This document shows positions 4,078-25,520 of a DNA stretch of 27,640 nucleotides, one piece after another (within the stretch, counting starts at the first letter, position 1; every line of letters starts with the position of its first letter). The position numbers and the translations under genes are program-made. The notes beneath the pieces are model-generated. The model was not told the DNA's origin. It saw only the letters and a list, made by a program, of their open reading frames with translations, and did not search any database. The stretch lies in IMG/VR virus record IMGVR_UViG_3300027736_000202, positions 1 through 27,640 of that record. One strand, 5' to 3'. The stretch comes from a virus.

Positions 4078-4830
4078 ATGGCCGTTTCACGGTTCATTCT
4101 TGACCAGTCACAACTCAACAATGCTGACTTCGGGTTAGATGGTTTCAGTCCAGCATTTGTTCTAAATACTTCAACACTTGATTCGATAGCCAAGTTAGAC
4201 GGTTTCACCTTCACCACAACTGTCACGGCTTCGGCTGGTTTAGGTGGGTTGGCTAGTTCTGCGTCAGCGTTGGTGTCTCATCAAGTTACGGCTGGGGCGG
4301 TGTTGGGTGGGTTGGTTGGTGCAGCCTCAGCGTCGGTGTCGAATGTTGTTTCTGCTCAGGCGGTTTTGGGCGGTGTTGTTGGGTCTGCTGGTGCAACGGT
4401 CATACATAGGGTTTCGGCTCATGCTGGTTTAGGTGCAGGTGTTGGTTCGGCTACTGCTTCGGTGTTGAATGTCGTTTCGGCTCAGGCTGTGTTGGGTGGG
4501 TTGTCTGCGAATGCGAATGCGAACGTGTCTGGTGTTGTCACGGCTTCTGCTTCGCTTGGTGGGTTGGTTGCTTCGGCTAATGCAACGGTTGATCCGGCAC
4601 CAAGTCCACCGCCAGCTCAGTATCCAGGTGGTAATCCTTGGTACCGTCGTTCACAGGTTGTTCAGCAACCCAAGGTTGAGGAGGTTGTGCAGGTTGTAAT
4701 TGATTTGCCTCGGTTGCCTCGTCGAGTGTTTGGTGCAGGTTCGTCGTCATCGTTTATGACTTCTTCTGCGGTTGGCGTTGTAACATGGTCAATACTGGAA
4801 GATGAAGCAGAACTACTGCTTTTGGTATGA
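4078..4830 (+). CDS. Repeat-built structural protein (six 21-residue repeats)
   Basis: A 250-residue protein in three parts. Residues 1-48 form a non-repetitive head. Residues 49-174 are six consecutive 21-residue repeats of the type VSAQAVLGGLVGSAGASVSNV. Residues 175-250 form a Pro-rich linker and a tail with WYRRSQVVQQPK and an acidic/hydrophobic end. Conserved positions are V-[ST]-A at each repeat start, LGG in the middle and small residues elsewhere, which suggests a beta-stacked rod or fibre. Repeat DNA differs at synonymous sites, so the repeats are old and kept at protein level. The gene lies eight bases after its neighbour. It is likely a fibre or decoration protein; I do not recognise a named family. 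Confidence 0.6.
   Translation: MAVSRFILDQSQLNNADFGLDGFSPAFVLNTSTLDSIAKLDGFTFTTTVTASAGLGGLASSASALVSHQVTAGAVLGGLVGAASASVSNVVSAQAVLGGVVGSAGATVIHRVSAHAGLGAGVGSATASVLNVVSAQAVLGGLSANANANVSGVVTASASLGGLVASANATVDPAPSPPPAQYPGGNPWYRRSQVVQQPKVEEVVQVVIDLPRLPRRVFGAGSSSSFMTSSAVGVVTWSILEDEAELLLLV
4222..4599 (+). repeat. Six tandem 63-base coding repeats
   Basis: Six in-frame 63-base units encode the 21-residue repeats of the structural protein at 4078-4830. The best nucleotide match is between units 3 and 5, which both encode VSAQAVLGG. The units are diverged, mostly at third codon positions. Confidence 0.85.
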
Positions 4831-4836
4831 GGTGAC

Positions 4837-5103
4837 ATGACTTTGAGTTCTTATGTTTATACGGTGAACACAACGCCTAGGTTGCTTGCTGACGCACCTC
4901 TCAATCCTGTCAAGGTGACAATCCACAACAACAACCACCAAGCGAACTCGATTGTTTATTTGGGTGGTTCTGCTGTTACGACTTCAACTGGTTTGCATCT
5001 TGATCCTGAAGCAACTTTATATTTTGTTTTGAACAGTAGCGAACAGCTCTTTGGTGTTGCTGCTAGTGCTTTGGATTGTTCTTTGATTGTGCAGCCGTTC
5101 TGA
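4837..5103 (+). CDS. Small putative virion protein
   Basis: An 88-residue, probably beta-rich protein. It contains KVTIHNNNHQANSIVYLGG (about 26-44) followed by AVTTSTGLHLDPEA, a pattern common in small phage structural proteins that read like a compact beta sandwich. There is no signal peptide or membrane helix. GAGGTG lies just before the ATG. The stop overlaps the ATG of the protease gene at 5103. It belongs to the three-gene block between portal and protease, so a head decoration or fibre-attachment role is plausible. Specific function is unknown. Confidence 0.6.
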   Translation: MTLSSYVYTVNTTPRLLADAPLNPVKVTIHNNNHQANSIVYLGGSAVTTSTGLHLDPEATLYFVLNSSEQLFGVAASALDCSLIVQPF

Positions 5104-6767
5104 TGCCATATTTTATTTCTGATAAGAATGCTGACTGTGCTGGTTGGGCTGTGGAAAAGGAAGATGGCGAAGTGATGGGGTGCCATCAGTTAAAACAGGA
5201 TGCGGTAGATCAGATGGTTGCAATTTCTTTAGATGAGGATATGGAGCCAGGTGGCGAACGTGCAGTTGATTTGAAATTGCCTAGCTACATCCAATCGGCT
5301 GCTGCTAAAGGTTTGGAATATAACGCTCAAGGTTTAGGTGGTGACGGACTGATTGAGCGAACTATTCGTGAGGCACGTTTAATGGCTGACGGGAACATCA
5401 GCGAGGATAAAGTAATTCGGGCTAATGCTTGGGGTGCGAGACATCTTGTTGATTTGGATGCTTCACAGAACTCTGAGCCTGACGATGATGCTTTTCCTGG
5501 TGCCGGTGCTGTGGCGTTCTACCTTTGGGGCATTGACCCGCTTGATCCTGAACCTGCGATGACTTGGTTTGCTCGTAAAGCACAGGCCATCAAAGATGAT
5601 CAGGCTGGGTCATCACGGTCAGCGAACGCTTCCGATGTGGTCATCGTTGACATTGACGGGACACTTCTTGCTGGTGGTGAAGGTATTCAAAAAAACATTG
5701 ACTATGTGAACGCTCTTTATGAGAAGTTCTTTATCTACATTGTGACTGGTCGTGGTGAAGATGAGGAAGATAAGACCGTTGCCGAGTTGGCTGATGCCGG
5801 AGTCAAATATGATGACATTGAGTTCAACGAAGATTTAAGCATTCCAACCCCTGAATACAAGGGCAATAAGGCTGCTGACATTCTGTCTGAACAGACTGTT
5901 GTTTTGGCGATAGATAATGATCCTGCTGCACGTCGAGCATATTTTGATTTAGGTATCAAAACCCTTGACCCTAAGCGGATCAAGTCTGGCGATATGCCAA
6001 CCTTGCGTAAAGCATCAGCGTTCCACCGCAAAGATGAGCAGGACTTTGGTAATGTTTCTCATATGACTGAACAGGTAGAGACACGCAGAGTTACCGTATC
6101 CGATTTTGAGTTGCGGGCTAACGAGTCCGGTGACGGTATGTCATTTACTGGTTATGCAGCTGTGTTCAACTCACCTTCTGAGCCGTTGCCGTTTATTGAA
6201 ACTATTGCACCTGGTGCATTTGCACGTTCATTGAAGGCACGAAACAATATCCGAATGTACATGAATCATGACTCATCAATGTTGTTGGCTACGACTCGTG
6301 CTAAGACTTTGCGTTTGCAGGAAGACTCGAAGGGCTTGTTGGCTTCGGCTGATTTGCCTGAAACTTCTGTTGGTAAAGACCTATCAATTTTGATGAAGCG
6401 TGGTGACGTAACCTCGATGTCGTTCGGTTTTACGGTTCCTTCTGGTGGTGATCGTTGGTCTGAAGATGGCATGAGTCGTGAGTTGCGTCAGATCAAACTG
6501 TTTGAGGTTTCGGTTGTGACAGGCTTCCCAGCGTATTCGGCAACTTCTGCACAGGTTCGCAGTTTTGATGCGTTGGCTACCCGTACCGGTGTTGATGCTG
6601 ACAAACTTGCTGACGCAATTTTGGTGTTGGAATCTGGAAAAACTTTGTCACCAGATCAGGGTGCGTTGTTGCGTGAAACTGTTGCAAAGTTGGAACCAAC
6701 ACCAACTGCACCACCTGCGACACTTGGCCTGATGGCTAAGCATCTTGAACTAATCAAGAACTTCTAG
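5103..6767 (+). CDS. Three-part protein: N-terminal phage domain, HAD-like domain, prohead protease
   Basis: A 554-residue fusion. Residues 1-165 carry a domain with SYIQSAAAKGLEYNAQGLGG, AWGARHLVD and FPGAGAVAFYLWG, a module I have seen attached to phage head-maturation proteins. Residues 178-290 look like a HAD-type phosphohydrolase: VDIDGTLL (D183, D185), IVTGRG (T215), lysines K253/K256 and AIDNDP (D271, D273). Residues about 325-486 are an HK97-type (S78) prohead protease, with the probable catalytic His in MYMNHDSS (H389) and Ser in MSFGF (S440), ending FEVSVVTGFPAYSAT. The protease trims scaffold and capsid N-termini. ATG 5103 overlaps the upstream stop (TGATG) and is preferred to TTG 5076. 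Protease function is confident; the HAD activity is inferred from motifs. Neighbouring capsid gene fits. Confidence 0.85.
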   Translation: MPYFISDKNADCAGWAVEKEDGEVMGCHQLKQDAVDQMVAISLDEDMEPGGERAVDLKLPSYIQSAAAKGLEYNAQGLGGDGLIERTIREARLMADGNISEDKVIRANAWGARHLVDLDASQNSEPDDDAFPGAGAVAFYLWGIDPLDPEPAMTWFARKAQAIKDDQAGSSRSANASDVVIVDIDGTLLAGGEGIQKNIDYVNALYEKFFIYIVTGRGEDEEDKTVAELADAGVKYDDIEFNEDLSIPTPEYKGNKAADILSEQTVVLAIDNDPAARRAYFDLGIKTLDPKRIKSGDMPTLRKASAFHRKDEQDFGNVSHMTEQVETRRVTVSDFELRANESGDGMSFTGYAAVFNSPSEPLPFIETIAPGAFARSLKARNNIRMYMNHDSSMLLATTRAKTLRLQEDSKGLLASADLPETSVGKDLSILMKRGDVTSMSFGFTVPSGGDRWSEDGMSRELRQIKLFEVSVVTGFPAYSATSAQVRSFDALATRTGVDADKLADAILVLESGKTLSPDQGALLRETVAKLEPTPTAPPATLGLMAKHLELIKNF

Positions 6768-6902: not shown

Positions 6903-8084
6903 ATGAAAGAATATATTGACCGTCAGGTTGAGATTCGCAATCGTGCATGGGAAGAAGCCAAGTCAATCTTGGACAAAGCCACCGCAGAAAAGCGTGACCT
7001 CTCAGCTGAAGAAAACCAAACCTATGAGCGAATCTCAAAGGAACTGGACGAGCGTGCACAGACCATCGCAAAACTTCGTGAAGACGAAGCTCGTGAACTG
7101 CGCCTCGATGCAGCAACCCGTGACATCGCCTCACAGGCACGTCCACAAGAATCAGCTGCACCAGTTGCAGATGATGCTTCGTTCCTCCGTTCACTTGTTA
7201 TGGGCGAAAAGCGTTCACACACATTTGAACGTCGTGACATCACCAAGGGTTCAGCAGGCGCACCTGTACCAACCTCGTTCTACAACCAAGTAATTGCACA
7301 GGCTCGCCTTGTTGCACCGATCTTGCAAGTAGCAACGATTTTGAACACCGCCGGTGGCGAAAACCTTCAAATCCCTTCGCAGTTCAGCTGGTCAACAGCA
7401 ACTCTGCCAGGTGAAGGAACCGCAATCAGCGAGTCCGATCCACAGTTCAACTCGTTCGTGACCTTGGGTGCTTACAAGTACTCATTCTTGACACAGTTGA
7501 CAACGGAACTCATCGAAGACTCTGGTGTTGACATCCTCGGCTTCTTGGCAGAACAGACTGGTAACGCTCTTGGTTATGCAGTAGGTTCGGCTTTGACAGT
7601 CGGTTCAGGAACCAACCAGCCAAAGGGCATCGTCACAGCATCAGCTGTTGGTGGTACCGCAGGCACCGCAACCGCATTCACCGCAGACAACTTGATTGAC
7701 TTGCTGTACAGCCTTGATGGCGCAGCACGTAACCTTCCTGGTGTCGGTTGGATGATGAACGGCAAGTCAATTGGTGCAGTTCGCAAGTTGAAGGACACAG
7801 CTGGAAATTATGTATTCCAGCCAGCTCTTTCAATGGAATCACCAGACATGCTTCTTGGCAAGCCAATCTACGAAAACCCTTCAATGGTCGACGTAGCAAC
7901 TGGAACCAAGTCAGTTATCGTCGGTCACCTTCCTTCGTACTACGTACGTACGGTTGGTGGAATCAAGTTGGAGCGCAGCGATGACTTCGCATTCAACACC
8001 GGCTTGGTGACTTTCCGCAGCACATACAGGGTTGACGCAAATCTTCCACAAGTTAGCCACATTAAGCACCTCCTACAACCATAA
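6903..8084 (+). CDS. Major capsid protein, HK97 fold
   Basis: A 393-residue coat protein that builds the icosahedral shell. Residues 1-75 are charged and helical (delta-domain/scaffold-like coiled coil) and residues 76-105 form a linker, the part probably removed by the protease encoded upstream. The coat proper runs from about 107 and includes VPTSFYNQVI, LQIPSQFSW, TQLTTELIEDS, a GSGTNQPKGIV segment and the closing FNTGLVTFRSTYRVDANL, typical of the HK97 gp5 family. The Shine-Dalgarno is strong (AGAAGGA, 6889-6895, seven bases before ATG). Codons are unusually C-ended and regular compared with neighbours, as expected for the most abundant phage protein. A strong terminator follows. Confidence 0.95.
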   Translation: MKEYIDRQVEIRNRAWEEAKSILDKATAEKRDLSAEENQTYERISKELDERAQTIAKLREDEARELRLDAATRDIASQARPQESAAPVADDASFLRSLVMGEKRSHTFERRDITKGSAGAPVPTSFYNQVIAQARLVAPILQVATILNTAGGENLQIPSQFSWSTATLPGEGTAISESDPQFNSFVTLGAYKYSFLTQLTTELIEDSGVDILGFLAEQTGNALGYAVGSALTVGSGTNQPKGIVTASAVGGTAGTATAFTADNLIDLLYSLDGAARNLPGVGWMMNGKSIGAVRKLKDTAGNYVFQPALSMESPDMLLGKPIYENPSMVDVATGTKSVIVGHLPSYYVRTVGGIKLERSDDFAFNTGLVTFRSTYRVDANLPQVSHIKHLLQP

Positions 8085-8099
8085 GTTGAAGGTAGTGCA

Positions 8100-8117
8100 A
8101 CCGATAGCAATATCGGT
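8100..8117 (+). other. Hairpin with GCAA tetraloop after capsid gene
   Basis: ACCGATA-GCAA-TATCGGT: seven perfect pairs closed by a GNRA-type loop, 15 bases after the capsid stop and just before the terminator. It may protect the 3' end of the capsid message from exonucleases. Structure is seen; role is inferred. Confidence 0.45.
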
Positions 8118-8125
8118 GTAAGTTT

Positions 8126-8170
8126 GAGGGTAGGTCGAACACGCAGGGCGACCTACCCTCATTTCTTTTT
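8126..8170 (+). terminator. Strong intrinsic terminator after major capsid gene
   Basis: GAGGGTAGGTCG (8126-8137) pairs perfectly over 12 bases with CGACCTACCCTC (8149-8160) around an 11-base loop, followed by ATTTCTTTTT. It would end or attenuate transcription from the head module and separate it from the glycosyltransferase cassette. Confidence 0.9.
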
Positions 8171-8199
8171 ATACCCTGCGACCTGCGAAGGAGAGAACG

Positions 8200-9507
8200 G
8201 TGGGAAATGCTCGTAATCGTCAAGAACACAATGGTCGAGTTACCAGACCTAGAAGCGGAGATATTGCTCCGAAGGGGAATAGCGCACTTGCCAGAGCGGG
8301 CAGATTTGCCGATCCCGACACGCTACGAATCCTCTGGTATTCCAACGCACCATTCGCACCAACCGGTTACGGCACCCAAACAGCGCAAGTCGTCCAAAGG
8401 CTCATCAAAAAACACGAAGTAGCAATCCATGCGATGTATGGCATTGAGGGTATGGCTTCTATTTGGAATGGGATAAAACTTTATCCACGAGGGATGTCAG
8501 CGTATTCAGATGATGTGCTTGTTGCGCATTGGATGGATTGGGCTAATGGCAATCGTGACATTCCAGCGATGTTGATGACGTTGTTTGATGTGTGGGTGTT
8601 GAAGTCACCATCGTTGGATCAGGTAGCGAATATCGCTTCTTGGGTTCCGATTGATCATGCGCCTTGCCCGCCTGAAGTGATTGCTTGGTGCAAGCGTCCT
8701 AATGTGAAACCGATTGCGATGTCTAAGTTTGGTTTGCAAATGTTGCAGAACGCTGGTGTTGATGCGATGTATGCGCCTCATGCGTTTGAAAAAGTTTTTG
8801 CTCCGACACCGAAGTTGGCTAATAGTCGTGGTGAGATGACAGGTCGTCAGCTGATGGAGGTTGATGAGGACAGGTTTGTTGTGATGATGAATGCTGCGAA
8901 CAAAGGTCAGAATCCTTCACGCAAATCTTTTGCTGAGAACATTCTGGCGTTCGCTATCTTCGCTCAAGACCGTCCTGATGCTTTGCTGTATTTGCATACT
9001 GAACGTGATGGTGCGATGGGTGGAATCAACTTGGCTCACCTTCTTGATGCGTGTGGTGTGAAGCCTGAGCAGTACAAGATTGTTGACCCTTACGCTTATC
9101 GGACTGGTTTCCCTCAGCAGGCGTTGGCTGCGCTGTACACCGCTTCAGATGTGTTGTTGGCTTGCTCGATGGGTGAAGGTTTCGGTATTCCTGTTATCGA
9201 GGCGCAGGCTTGCGGTACGAGGGTCATCGTTTCTGATTACACGGCTCAGCCTGAGTTGGTTGGGGCTGGGTGGGCTGTGGACATTCAGCCGTTCTGGGAT
9301 AGCCATCAACGGTCATGGTTCTGCACCCCTCAGGTACCGTCCATCGTGGATGCCCTGATACAGGCCTACGAGGCTCCTAGAGGCGTGTGCCAGGAGGCTG
9401 TGGACTTTGCAAGCCAATATGACGCTGATGCCGTATTTGAGAGCCATTGGAAGCCAATCATGAAGGAGTTGTCGGAATGGTGCCAGTCATCATCATCCCC
9501 GTCCTAA
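8200..9507 (+). CDS. GT-B glycosyltransferase (GT4-like)
   Basis: A 435-residue sugar-nucleotide-dependent glycosyltransferase. The recognisable domain begins at residue 42 with LRILWYSNAPFAPTGYGTQT (the N-terminal Rossmann half) and ends with GEGFGIPVIEAQACGTRVI (325-343), whose two glutamates (E326, E334) form the EX7E donor-binding motif of GT4-type enzymes. Residues 1-41 look like no known domain and coincide with a second ORF in another frame (8207-8422). GTG 8200 is used because AAGGAG (8188-8193) is well placed and no ATG, GTG or TTG occurs in frame before the core. A frameshift from the overlapping ORF is an alternative. Donor and acceptor are unknown; it is the first gene of a sugar cassette. 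Confidence 0.85.
   Translation: MGNARNRQEHNGRVTRPRSGDIAPKGNSALARAGRFADPDTLRILWYSNAPFAPTGYGTQTAQVVQRLIKKHEVAIHAMYGIEGMASIWNGIKLYPRGMSAYSDDVLVAHWMDWANGNRDIPAMLMTLFDVWVLKSPSLDQVANIASWVPIDHAPCPPEVIAWCKRPNVKPIAMSKFGLQMLQNAGVDAMYAPHAFEKVFAPTPKLANSRGEMTGRQLMEVDEDRFVVMMNAANKGQNPSRKSFAENILAFAIFAQDRPDALLYLHTERDGAMGGINLAHLLDACGVKPEQYKIVDPYAYRTGFPQQALAALYTASDVLLACSMGEGFGIPVIEAQACGTRVIVSDYTAQPELVGAGWAVDIQPFWDSHQRSWFCTPQVPSIVDALIQAYEAPRGVCQEAVDFASQYDADAVFESHWKPIMKELSEWCQSSSSPS
8207..8422 (+). CDS. Small phage protein overlapping the glycosyltransferase start
   Basis: A 71-residue ORF wholly inside the 5' end of the glycosyltransferase, in another frame. Its first part reads MVELPDLEAEILLRRGIAHL, which matches a style of small proteins placed directly after the capsid gene in many actinobacterial phages (V-x-LPD-x-EAE-x-LL-x-x-G-x-A). 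The end, PKQRKSSKGSSKNTK, is the basic disordered tail common in such proteins. The Shine-Dalgarno at 8188-8195 is somewhat far (13 bases) for ATG 8207 but close to GTG 8200. Either both frames are translated or this ORF shifts into the glycosyltransferase frame. Function unknown; perhaps head-associated. Confidence 0.5.
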   Translation: MLVIVKNTMVELPDLEAEILLRRGIAHLPERADLPIPTRYESSGIPTHHSHQPVTAPKQRKSSKGSSKNTK

Positions 9508-10142
9508 ACAGGTATGACCTGCTTGACAGGTGCCTTCGGTCGATTGACTATCCGGTTGAAACTCTCATCATCATTGACAATGGTGGACAGTCCACGTTGC
9601 ATGATTGGCCTTGGGTCATTGACCGTCGAATGGTCAAGAACTATCACGTCTGGTCTATGCCCACCAATCTTGGTGTTGCTCCATCATGGAACATCGGTAT
9701 CAAAGCAACACCTCACGCTGACGGTTGGATCATTCTGAACTCTGATGCGTTCTTTGAGCCAGGTCAGTTAGAAGTTTTTTACAACGACTGCAAGCCTGAT
9801 TCGGTGACATTGACTGAAGCTCAACCTGGTTGGTGTTGTGCATGGATTGGTTCTGAGGTTGTTGCCAAAGTTGGGTTGTTTTCGGAATGTTATGTTCCCG
9901 CCTACTTTGAGGACAACGATTTTCAGGAACGGGCTAAACGCCTAAATGTCGAGTTCTGGACTTCTGACGCTGGGGTCATTCATGACAACTCTTCTACTCT
10001 TTTATCTGCACCAGAACTACAGGAAAAGAATGCGAAAAGTTTTGCTGCCAATGGTGCGCTTCATGCGATGCGATGGCAGTCAGGTTTACCTGATGCAGGT
10101 CATTGGGATTTAACACGACGAAGGGAATTGGGATGGGACTAG
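9477..10142 (+). CDS. GT-A glycosyltransferase (GT2-like)
   Basis: A 221-residue family 2-type glycosyltransferase. It opens with VPVIIIPVLNRYDLLDRCL (2-20), has IIIDNGG (31-37, nucleotide binding), NLGVAPSWNIGI (64-75), ILNSDAFFEPG (86-96, with NSD in place of the metal-binding DXD) and FEDNDF (144-149, the probable catalytic base region). These occur in the usual GT2 order. The preferred start is ATG 9477, with AAGGAG (9463-9468) eight bases before it, overlapping the end of the previous glycosyltransferase. It likely adds a second sugar in the same pathway. Substrate unknown; soluble, with no membrane helix. Confidence 0.85.
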   Translation: MVPVIIIPVLNRYDLLDRCLRSIDYPVETLIIIDNGGQSTLHDWPWVIDRRMVKNYHVWSMPTNLGVAPSWNIGIKATPHADGWIILNSDAFFEPGQLEVFYNDCKPDSVTLTEAQPGWCCAWIGSEVVAKVGLFSECYVPAYFEDNDFQERAKRLNVEFWTSDAGVIHDNSSTLLSAPELQEKNAKSFAANGALHAMRWQSGLPDAGHWDLTRRRELGWD

Positions 10143-10780
10143 AGGACTACAACCTTCTTCACGAAGGAGAAACAATTTATGTCATCGGGTCAGGTGCGAC
10201 CTTAGATTATCTGTCACCTGATTTCTTTGATGACAAACTCAGCATCACGGTCAATTTCTCTGGGTCAGTTTTTGGGATGAAAAACTATTACTGCTTCAGT
10301 CATTATCACGGCGACGCAGTTCATGAGGCTCGACTTGATGAGTCAATCGCAGTCTTTACCCCGTTACGTGAACATGGAACCGATGCAGAGTTTCAAGGCT
10401 TCATGCCAAAGATCGTGACGTTCCATACCCGCACCGGCAGACCAGGTGTGTCGTTCAACCCGCATGACAAGGATTGGCCTGTTGAGTATGACCAGTTGGT
10501 TATCGGGTCTTCAGGGATTCATGGGGCGATGCACTTGGCTGCATACATGGGGGCGAAGTTCATTGTGTTGGTTGGGGCTGACTGCGGTTCGCTGGGTGGC
10601 AAGGACAGGGTTGATGGTTATGTAACTGGCGATACTCATTGGGCTTTATATGAGCAACACCTTCGAGCGATGAAGCAACGGTTGTGGGATGTGTATTCCT
10701 GTCAGGTGTATTCGTTGAACCCGTTTGTGAACTATTCCCTTGAGGGTGTGAAGTATCGTGGTGCTGCGTCAATCAACTAG
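10133..10780 (+). CDS. MptE/DUF115-like protein, possible sugar transferase
   Basis: A 215-residue protein that starts with a Rossmann-type YVIGSGATLDYL (16-27). It contains SGIHGAMHLAAYMGAKFIVLVGADC split over residues 127-151 and ends with YSCQVYSLNPFVNYSLEGV. This layout resembles the MAF_flag10/DUF115 group, which includes the 6-hydroxymethylpterin pyrophosphokinase MptE and proteins implicated in nonulosonic (sialic-type) acid transfer to flagellin. ATG 10133 has AAGGGA six bases upstream and overlaps the end of the GT2 gene. As third gene of the sugar cassette, a glycan-transfer role is more likely than a pterin one. The family call is moderate; activity is inference. Confidence 0.6.
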   Translation: MGLEDYNLLHEGETIYVIGSGATLDYLSPDFFDDKLSITVNFSGSVFGMKNYYCFSHYHGDAVHEARLDESIAVFTPLREHGTDAEFQGFMPKIVTFHTRTGRPGVSFNPHDKDWPVEYDQLVIGSSGIHGAMHLAAYMGAKFIVLVGADCGSLGGKDRVDGYVTGDTHWALYEQHLRAMKQRLWDVYSCQVYSLNPFVNYSLEGVKYRGAASIN

Positions 10781-20298: not shown

Positions 20299-21657
20299 GT
20301 GTTCAAGGTGAATACAAGTAGTAAGTCCCGTTGGCTAGTCCTTGTCCCAGCGTTAATAGGTTTTCTTTTCACAGCATCGTCGGCTGAGGCTGACACGTTT
20401 GGTGTGTGGGAGTTCTCTAAGTCTTGTCTCGCTGCTGAGGGTGGGTCGGTTGTTCCGATTGAGGGTGGGTTTACTCTTGTTGGTGCTGATGGTGGGACGT
20501 GTGCTGGGAAGTCTCATTATGTTCGGATGCAGGCCACGATTCCTGAAGGCACTAATCAGATTGGTTTCTTGTGGTCGTATCAGACGAACGATGGTTCTTG
20601 GTATGACCCTCCACAAATCATTCTCAATGGGGTTATCACGAAGCTGACGAATGAGAACAACGCCACCGGATCAGGGTTGATTCAAGTTCAGGCTGGGGAT
20701 GTGTTTGCGTTCCAGCAGTACTCGACTGATTCATGCTGCCAACCGGGCAACCTCACGATTACAGGCCTGACATTAGGCTTGGGTGAATGGGTATCTACAA
20801 CCTCATCCACAACAACGACGACGACCTCTACTACTACTGTCCCGCTAGTGACTGTCCCTGTCACCAACCTGACTACTACGACTCTTCAAACAGTCGTGCC
20901 ATCAACCACAACGGAACCACCACAAACAACAACAATCCCAGAAACAGTTTCAACGGTTACCTCAACTAGTTCAACGACAACAAGTACGTCAACGACTGTA
21001 GCCCCAACAACGACCACGACGACTGTGGTTTACACGCCTCCGGCAACGACAACTACCGTTCCTGAAACAACGACAACCACCACAACGGAACCAGAACCAG
21101 CCCCCACCACAACACTCCCGCCTCCGTTAGAAACAACCACATCAACTTCAACAACGACATCAACTGTCCCCCCTGTGACCACAACTCAACCAGATGTGAC
21201 TACAACGCTACAAGCCCCCACAGATGAGCCTGAACCGCTCACCCAAACAGAACTACTAAACACCCTGAAAGCCCTCTCAGAAGCCACGACAGAGGCCATA
21301 GAAGCCATCGTAGATTCAGTCCTCAGCAAAAACCTAGACACCAGCCAAGCGACCCTGCTCATCACCAGCCCAGCCGTATTAGAAAACATCACCACCGCCC
21401 AAGCCGAACAACTCTTCAGCGAAATCGCCCCAACCGAACTCAGCCCCGACGAAGCCGAAGCAGTAGTCGAAGCGGTGCAAAATGCACCATCATCTGTGCG
21501 TAAAGCGTTTGAGTCTGTGTTGAATATCTTCCAAGGTTTCGCTGACAATTATGTTGCGCTGAACTCAACGGTGCCGGTGAAAACCCGTCGTGCGCTGATT
21601 GCGTTGAGTGCTGTATTCTTGACGGTAGCCCCTGCACCTACACGAAGGATTCGGTGA
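20299..21657 (+). CDS. Secreted Thr/Pro-rich protein
   Basis: A 452-residue exported protein. Residues 1-31 form a signal peptide (basic RWLVLVPALIGFLFTASS, likely cut after AEA). Residues 32-165 are a beta-type domain with four Cys pairs or singles (C43, C68, C146, C147). Residues 166-312 are a Thr/Pro/Ser-rich linker like a mucin stalk. Residues 313-440 are helical, acidic and Ala-rich. The end (RALIALSAVFLTV then RRIR) may be a weak membrane anchor. Start is GTG 20299, or GTG 20308 nine bases later. Thr tracts of this kind are common in exported proteins of Acidimicrobiia. Base use changes sharply inside the gene. Function unknown: perhaps host surface display or virion attachment. It overlaps the next gene by one base. 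Confidence 0.7.
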   Translation: MFKVNTSSKSRWLVLVPALIGFLFTASSAEADTFGVWEFSKSCLAAEGGSVVPIEGGFTLVGADGGTCAGKSHYVRMQATIPEGTNQIGFLWSYQTNDGSWYDPPQIILNGVITKLTNENNATGSGLIQVQAGDVFAFQQYSTDSCCQPGNLTITGLTLGLGEWVSTTSSTTTTTTSTTTVPLVTVPVTNLTTTTLQTVVPSTTTEPPQTTTIPETVSTVTSTSSTTTSTSTTVAPTTTTTTVVYTPPATTTTVPETTTTTTTEPEPAPTTTLPPPLETTTSTSTTTSTVPPVTTTQPDVTTTLQAPTDEPEPLTQTELLNTLKALSEATTEAIEAIVDSVLSKNLDTSQATLLITSPAVLENITTAQAEQLFSEIAPTELSPDEAEAVVEAVQNAPSSVRKAFESVLNIFQGFADNYVALNSTVPVKTRRALIALSAVFLTVAPAPTRRIR

Positions 21658-24948: not shown

Positions 24949-25221
24949 ATGACAAACCGTCAAAAGCAAATAGGAACCGTAATCGGAATGGGAATCTTGT
25001 GGGGATTCTGGCTCATGCCAACAGCAGAAGACCTACCGGATGCGCAACCAGCAACACCGCTCGAATGGAAACTATTCATCGCACTCAACTTCGCAGCGAT
25101 AATCTATTTACACATCTTGAACGTGCGTGAACATCAACTCCAAATCCGTAAAGAAGCACAGCAACGATATTGGGAACGAATGGAAACTCGTTCACGCAAC
25201 AATCATCCAACCGCCAAATGA
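24949..25221 (+). CDS. Small membrane protein
   Basis: A 90-residue protein with two membrane segments: IGTVIGMGILWGFWLM (about 9-24) and LFIALNFAAIIYLHIL (about 42-57). A charged helical tail (REHQLQIRKEAQQRYWERME) follows. ATG 24949 is preferred over the one at 24925 because AAGGAGGG (24937-24944) is at ideal distance. It is coupled to the WhiB gene by an ATGA overlap. Function unknown; it might act with the exported transglycosylase before it. Confidence 0.65.
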   Translation: MTNRQKQIGTVIGMGILWGFWLMPTAEDLPDAQPATPLEWKLFIALNFAAIIYLHILNVREHQLQIRKEAQQRYWERMETRSRNNHPTAK

Positions 25222-25520
25222 GTAGCGGTCATGTAGTTGATATGTGGTCAGACGGTGATAACACGTTTAGACCACAACGCCCAGACTGGCAAGAAAAAGC
25301 ACGATGCAAAGGCGAGACCGAACTGTTCTTTAACGAAGGTTCACCACACGCAATCGCTGATGCGAAACTGTTTTGCGCTGGTTGCAACGTGCGTCGAATC
25401 TGTCTCAAGTTTGCGTTAGACAACGATGAGGTCGGTATTTGGGGTGGTACGACTACTATGGAGCGTCAAAGGTTGAAACGGTCTAGGAGGCGTACTGGTG
25501 ACATCACCGCAGAAGCGTAA
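25218..25520 (+). CDS. WhiB-like iron-sulfur regulator
   Basis: A 100-residue WhiB family protein. The four cysteines that hold a 4Fe-4S cluster are C30 (ARCKGET), C53 and C56 (FCAGC) and C62 (RRICLKFAL). The turn motif GIWGG (73-77) and the basic C-terminus (ERQRLKRSRRRTG) complete the family pattern. These proteins bind the main sigma factor or DNA in Actinobacteria, so this phage copy may redirect host transcription or block superinfection, as reported for the mycobacteriophage TM4 WhiB. ATG 25218 overlaps the stop before it (ATGA); a later ATG at 25242 would remove residues before the cluster only. Its presence is the strongest host clue. Confidence 0.92.
   Translation: MSSGHVVDMWSDGDNTFRPQRPDWQEKARCKGETELFFNEGSPHAIADAKLFCAGCNVRRICLKFALDNDEVGIWGGTTTMERQRLKRSRRRTGDITAEA

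Follow-up and report, generated by a model that had tools for sequence, protein, structure and literature searches.

A small gene overprinted on the start of a glycosyltransferase gene next to the capsid gene in a group of uncultured tailed phages

Genes and features of the locus

The window, that is, the whole stretch of DNA that was analysed, is the 27,640-base virus record IMGVR_UViG_3300027736_000202 (positions 1-27,640), and its genes follow one another as in a tailed phage, in the order terminase, portal, prohead protease, major capsid protein, glycan cassette, and head-tail connector. The features that matter here are the following.

6903..8084, + strand: major capsid protein gene, HK97 fold, Phage_capsid (Pfam PF05065, E 3e-55; phrog_10 major head protein, E 4.8e-62), immediately 5' of the overlap region
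8125..8170, + strand: terminator-like hairpin, 13-bp stem and 11-nt loop, then TTTCTTTTT (RNA fold of 8085-8230, z -3.3)
8189..8193, + strand: Shine-Dalgarno sequence AGGAG, apparently common to both starts (sequence; geometry in relatives)
8200..9507, + strand: glycosyltransferase (GT) of GT4/GT-B type, 435 aa, GTG start (PF00534, E 3.3e-11, above cut-off; phrog_2170, E 5.8e-32; AF2 mean pLDDT 84)
8200..8325, + strand: N-terminal leader of GT, codons 1-42, overprinted on the small gene, somewhat basic (residues 1-35 at pLDDT ~30, predicted disorder; changes mostly at GT codon position 1; stops avoided)
8207..8422, + strand: overprinted small gene (sORF), 71 aa, +1 frame relative to GT (conserved in 122 + 66 + 20 distinct sequences)
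8207..8296, + strand: predicted folded beta-beta-alpha domain of the sORF product, residues 1-30 (AF2 pLDDT 84-87; strands 2-5 and 8-11, helix 14-23)
8375..8422, + strand: basic C-terminal tail of sORF and its TAG stop (GT-frame synonymous change depressed; Val74 is GTA in 113/116)
9447..10142, + strand: second glycosyltransferase of the cassette, GT2 family (PF00535, E 9.3e-7; phrog_29879, E 1.3e-40)
10103-10780: third enzyme of the glycan cassette, weak match
from 10793: head-tail connector
25170-25520: WhiB transcription factor gene (PF02467, E 3.9e-18)

The WhiB gene points to an actinobacterial host. The hairpin (8125-8161 followed by the T-run) lies between the capsid gene and the overlapping pair, directly 3' of the former and about 20-30 nt 5' of the Shine-Dalgarno site of the latter; a simple terminator scan missed it because its loop limit was 8 and the hairpin loop is 11 nt. 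Expression of the pair presumably depends on read-through or on a nearby promoter. Elsewhere in the window, the ORF of the prohead protease (Peptidase_S78, 5076-6767) begins with a weak match to HAD acid phosphatases (PF03767, E 1.5e-4, below cut-off), and the protein encoded between the portal and protease genes (4078-4830) contains repeated units resembling VSAQAVLGGLVGSA.

Relatives used and the two start codons

An open +1 frame is unremarkable in one sequence, and in synonymous permutations of the GT gene it stayed open in 15-91% of cases, so that a test on the single sequence is not decisive and the case rests on relatives. From searches with GT 80 of 248 relatives were kept and from searches with sORF 80 of 99, to which wider sets were added that partly comprise the same contigs. 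The main set holds 122 distinct relatives, clade 2 holds 66 and clade 3 holds 20 sequences, giving 208 distinct sequences in all. Three loci, L307, L309, and L311, were initially let through by the sORF filter although the frame they carry is unrelated and their GT frame has a stop, and these were removed from the final counts.

Re-reading of both ORFs confirmed the original prediction that two protein-like frames occupy 8207-8422. The GT frame runs from GTG 8200 to its stop at 9507 (435 aa), with the core, RILWYSNAPFAPTGYGTQ, beginning at about codon 43, and the sORF frame runs from ATG 8207 to TAG 8420-8422 (71 aa), so that 216 bp are common to both. It had also been noted that the GT frame has no other usual start before its core, and indeed there is no in-frame ATG, GTG, or TTG between GTG 8200 and the core. 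GTG 8200 is a plausible start with AGGAG 8189-8193 located 6 nt upstream. The same AGGAG is 13 nt from ATG 8207, which is longer than optimal, and the two starts are 7 nt apart.

In most relatives the distance from AGGAG(G) to the start is 5-6 nt for GT and 9-16 nt for sORF, and in clade 2 the ATG of sORF is at 3 nt and the GTG of GT at 5 nt so that the two starts overlap as ATGTG. The order of the starts thus swaps among clades, the GT start either preceding that of sORF by 4-10 nt or following it by 2 nt. Most likely, judging from this geometry, one Shine-Dalgarno site serves both starts, 2-10 nt apart. The sORF start has a GT-frame start no more than 10 nt away in 122/122 sequences of the main set, 66/66 of clade 2, 20/20 of clade 3, and 58/58 diverse representatives, among which L065 uses TTG in place of GTG. 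The pair persists across GTs that are only about 52-60% identical.

Selection on the sORF frame

The frames are related such that position 1 of a GT codon is position 3 of an sORF codon. When changes were counted on the tree of the 122 distinct sequences, those in GT codons 4-42 came to 12.05 per site at GT position 1, 5.08 at position 2, and 3.95 at position 3, which is the wobble pattern of sORF, whereas in GT codons 44-61 the values were 1.22, 1.11, and 11.44, which is the pattern of GT. Thus, the constrained frame flips from sORF to GT at about GT codon 43 (around 8326), and the same switch recurs in clade 2 (66) and clade 3 (20). In GT codons 62-74, which encode the sORF tail, the values were 3.15, 1.62, and 3.69 compared to 12-15 at third positions downstream, where the first-run and downstream-comparison position tables still include L307, L309, and L311. 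Both frames are therefore constrained over the sORF tail, and no downstream stretch of equal length had position-3 change as low as GT codons 3-42 or 62-74. A synonymous-site comparison across relatives had been proposed in the original prediction, and a comparison of this kind showed depressed third-position change in the GT frame over GT codons 3-42 and 62-74. Codon-periodic purifying selection, as expected of an overprinted pair, is thus present in the second frame.

The stop codon of sORF is likewise under selection. This TAG derives from GT codon 74, a Val, which was GTA in 113/116 sequences, while at other Val codons GTA was used in 170/3566 (5%). In clade 2 the residue at codon 74 alternates between Val and Ile and the codon is always GTA or ATA, whereby TAG is kept. 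At four-fold third positions of GT, T made up 4-5% over the sORF tail and 22-44% downstream, and this avoidance of T keeps the sORF tail hydrophilic. Most relatives that have no sORF do not show it.

Selection on the GT leader

At the four-fold sites of sORF where T would make a stop in the GT frame, T was found in 0/862 cases compared to 253/1650 at control sites, counts in which L307, L309, and L311 are still included. The corresponding figures were 0/379 and 48/1179 in clade 2 and 0/74 and 18/376 in clade 3, and of the inferred changes, those to T were 0/55 at stop-making sites and 24/81 at control sites. Random synonymous replacement of the sORF codons left the GT frame open in 5-38% of cases over 16 lineages and, for W-like sequences, in about 5%; in reality it is open in 16/16. 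In most lineages the GT leader is slightly more basic than leaders made from random codons, a mild trend, and beyond the open frame and this bias there is little amino acid constraint on it. What these computations establish is selection on both frames and on the GT start, and both frames are open with a start and a stop of their own.

A reading in which only sORF is translated in this region, the GT starting elsewhere from a non-canonical start near its core and its open frame being incidental, would agree with the near absence of amino acid constraint in GT codons 4-42 and with a leader that is disordered in the model. It is, however, hard to reconcile with the complete avoidance of T at stop-making sites, with the conserved GT start, with a GT frame that is open in every lineage despite chances of about 0.05 to 0.38, or with the lack of any ATG, GTG, or TTG in the window between the leader start and the core. 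We therefore regard it as quite improbable, although it fares best among the alternatives.

What the two products resemble

The GT scores 43.5 bits against the Glycos_transf_1 Pfam profile, above the cut-off of 26.4, and is family 4-like. It is likely a glycan transferase in a cassette that modifies the virion or the host surface. A very Thr/Ser-rich protein with long TTTT/STTT runs is encoded at 20299-21657, and one may speculate that it is conceivably an O-glycosylation target of the phage's own glycosyltransferases.

The sORF product had been likened to small post-capsid phage proteins. This likeness is borne out in part, by weak profile, fold, and position evidence, but the matches to DUF7302 (PF23976) stay below the curated cut-off, with 2/58 sORF members matching at a best E of 0.023. 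Among PHROG families sORF reached others of unknown function (best E 2.4e-4), and phrog_748 was absent from its matches. The best viral Foldseek matches were mycobacteriophage "head-to-tail connector" proteins of 65-85 aa with E ~0.09 (0.085, probability 0.97). When cultured phages were searched with the sORF consensus the sole match was Jolie2 gp8 (E 4), which is encoded between the capsid and head-tail adaptor genes and is itself DUF7302-like (E 9.7e-5), and hhalign of sORF residues 1-42 with Jolie2 gp8 gave a probability of 68-75%, this comparison having been picked after the search. Searches of the PDB with sORF gave no match by profile and nothing significant by fold. Like sORF, the DUF7302/phrog_748 "head-tail connector" proteins such as Jolie2 gp8 are short and have a comparable place, 3' of the capsid gene and 5' of connector genes; unlike them, sORF does not reach the Pfam cut-off, and the coding sequence of its tail lies within the GT gene. 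The post-capsid genes of other relatives of the major capsid protein encode gp6-like connectors, none of them sORF-like. Each of these lines is weak, and one was picked post hoc, but their agreement together with the shared genome position makes remote homology of sORF to DUF7302-like post-capsid proteins likely, though we do not assign sORF to that family. A likely role of the sORF product, weakly assigned, is that of a small head-associated or assembly protein of this kind.

In the AF2 models residues 1-30 of the sORF product form a beta-beta-alpha domain (pLDDT 84-87) with the remainder low, and in GT residues 1-35 are at pLDDT ~30 and the core is confident from about residue 43. The two frames are, by these predictions, complementary in that each stretch of DNA encodes one folded and one disordered product.

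Frameshifting, RNA structure, and sequence error

The original prediction had also offered a -1 frameshift, for example near a GGGG run placed at 8271-8276 (its actual position is 8274-8277), that would fuse the small protein to the enzyme. In this reading the N-terminal domain of sORF would be joined to the GT core, and the fusion would be the true product. The switch of the constrained frame from sORF to GT at about 8326 would also fit such a fusion, and the window has an A AAA AAC heptamer near the end of sORF. Slippage at this heptamer, however, would remove the GT motif WYSNAPFAPTGYG, and the GGGG run is about 45 nt before the switch with the sORF frame remaining constrained over that stretch. 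Programmed -1 frameshifting goes with a conserved slippery heptamer and with a downstream frame that needs neither a start nor an open frame upstream, and the data agree with neither. No position has a heptamer of the form X XXY YYZ in more than 9/122 sequences, the GT frame upstream of the switch is stop-free and has a start codon in all lineages, which a fusion does not need, and beyond the switch there is still conservation of the basic tail and the stop of sORF. The absence of a conserved heptamer, the tests on the GT leader, and the test on the sORF stop lead us to reject the fusion as the main product, and we hold it to be slightly less probable still than a GT start elsewhere.

A translated GT with an RNA element in place of sORF is a very remote prospect. 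It would account for the depressed synonymous change in the GT frame, but the changes are codon-periodic in the sORF frame, the sORF stop is conserved, the sORF sequence is still alignable where the GT leader drifts, and sORF resembles post-capsid proteins. A sequencing or assembly indel that conceals either one ORF or two separate genes, as a single-base change could in principle join the frames, is practically negligible, since the same layout with no net frame change recurs on many independent metagenome contigs (about 290 fetched loci, 289 of them with sORF, and 208 distinct sequences).

Distribution and history of the overlap

In all 289 loci that carry sORF it overlaps the GT core, and a standalone sORF was seen in 0/289, in a sample that is biased as it was assembled through searches with GT or sORF. 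No sORF was found in cultured phages by tblastn or in prokaryote genomes. It is missing from GT relatives L299-L305, L307-L312, L314, L315, L319-L321, and the Pontimonas phage phiPsal1, so that not every phage with this GT requires it. When sORF was sought elsewhere in GT relatives that have no overlap, only short matches over the GT-driven tail were obtained. phiPsal1 and the Microcystis phage Mae-JY09 encode, close to the capsid gene, a GT homologue of about 40-42% identity, but unlike in the window their GT genes do not extend over a second gene by a leader, and sORF is missing. On the GT tree, in which some placements are uncertain and phiPsal1 is an outgroup lacking sORF, four changes of the sORF label are needed, and the simplest reading is that sORF was basal in the ingroup and was later lost in L299-L315, L319-L320, and L321. 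Among the relatives lacking sORF, L299-L305, L307-L309, L311, L312, L314, and L315 have a short basic leader resembling MSNRATRRQQAKH 5' of the GT core; its start and Asn-Arg motif recall the leaders of sORF-bearing relatives, and it may be a remnant of the overlap.

Proposed mechanism and significance

The explanation we favor is true overprinting, which the original prediction had put beside the frameshift and which the start, the stop, and the conserved open frame of each gene support: a genuine same-strand overlapping pair, sORF at 8207-8422 and GT at 8200-9507, both probably translated by ordinary initiation. From the sequences we give this a probability of about 0.92. AGGAG 8189-8193 would most likely feed both GTG 8200 and ATG 8207, and no frameshift would be needed. 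The upstream 90-120 nt or so of the overlap would encode the folded domain of sORF together with the disordered GT leader, and the downstream 95 nt or so the folded first strand and helix of GT together with the disordered basic tail of sORF. In the likeliest scenario for its origin, the leader of GT was extended upstream over an older small gene and the tail of sORF came to read into GT. That a single Shine-Dalgarno site with two out-of-frame starts 2-10 nt apart is a maintained device coupling a head-associated small protein to a glycosyltransferase is a tentative idea, to which we give somewhat less than even odds.

In overprinted virus genes in general, one stretch is coding in two frames of the same strand and both are selected (PMC8227390). 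The present case differs from overprints in general in that a small post-capsid protein is paired with a glycosyltransferase, and in that the two genes, both of a tailed phage, have almost coincident starts, most likely fed by a single Shine-Dalgarno site. Our literature searches found no report of this post-capsid/glycosyltransferase gene pair. In the P/C genes of paramyxoviruses, starts a few nt apart open two frames and one protein overlaps the other with its disordered N-terminus, but initiation there is by eukaryotic scanning and here by a bacterial Shine-Dalgarno site, and there is no homology. In lambda Rz/Rz1 a phage gene is embedded in the +1 frame of another, but these are lysis proteins with an internal start, and proteins and geometry are unrelated to those of GT and sORF. 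To our knowledge deeply conserved same-strand overprints in tailed phages have seldom been documented, and part of the reason is that gene callers keep only one frame.

Hundreds of contigs from uncultured phages retain the overlap of GT and sORF, and several lineages seem to have lost sORF. With its clean split between folded and disordered products in the two frames, the overlap lends itself naturally to studying the origin and persistence of such arrangements, and the choice that a bacterial ribosome makes when a single Shine-Dalgarno site offers it two starts. For this phage group it also brings in a probable head-module protein, possibly absent from existing annotations.
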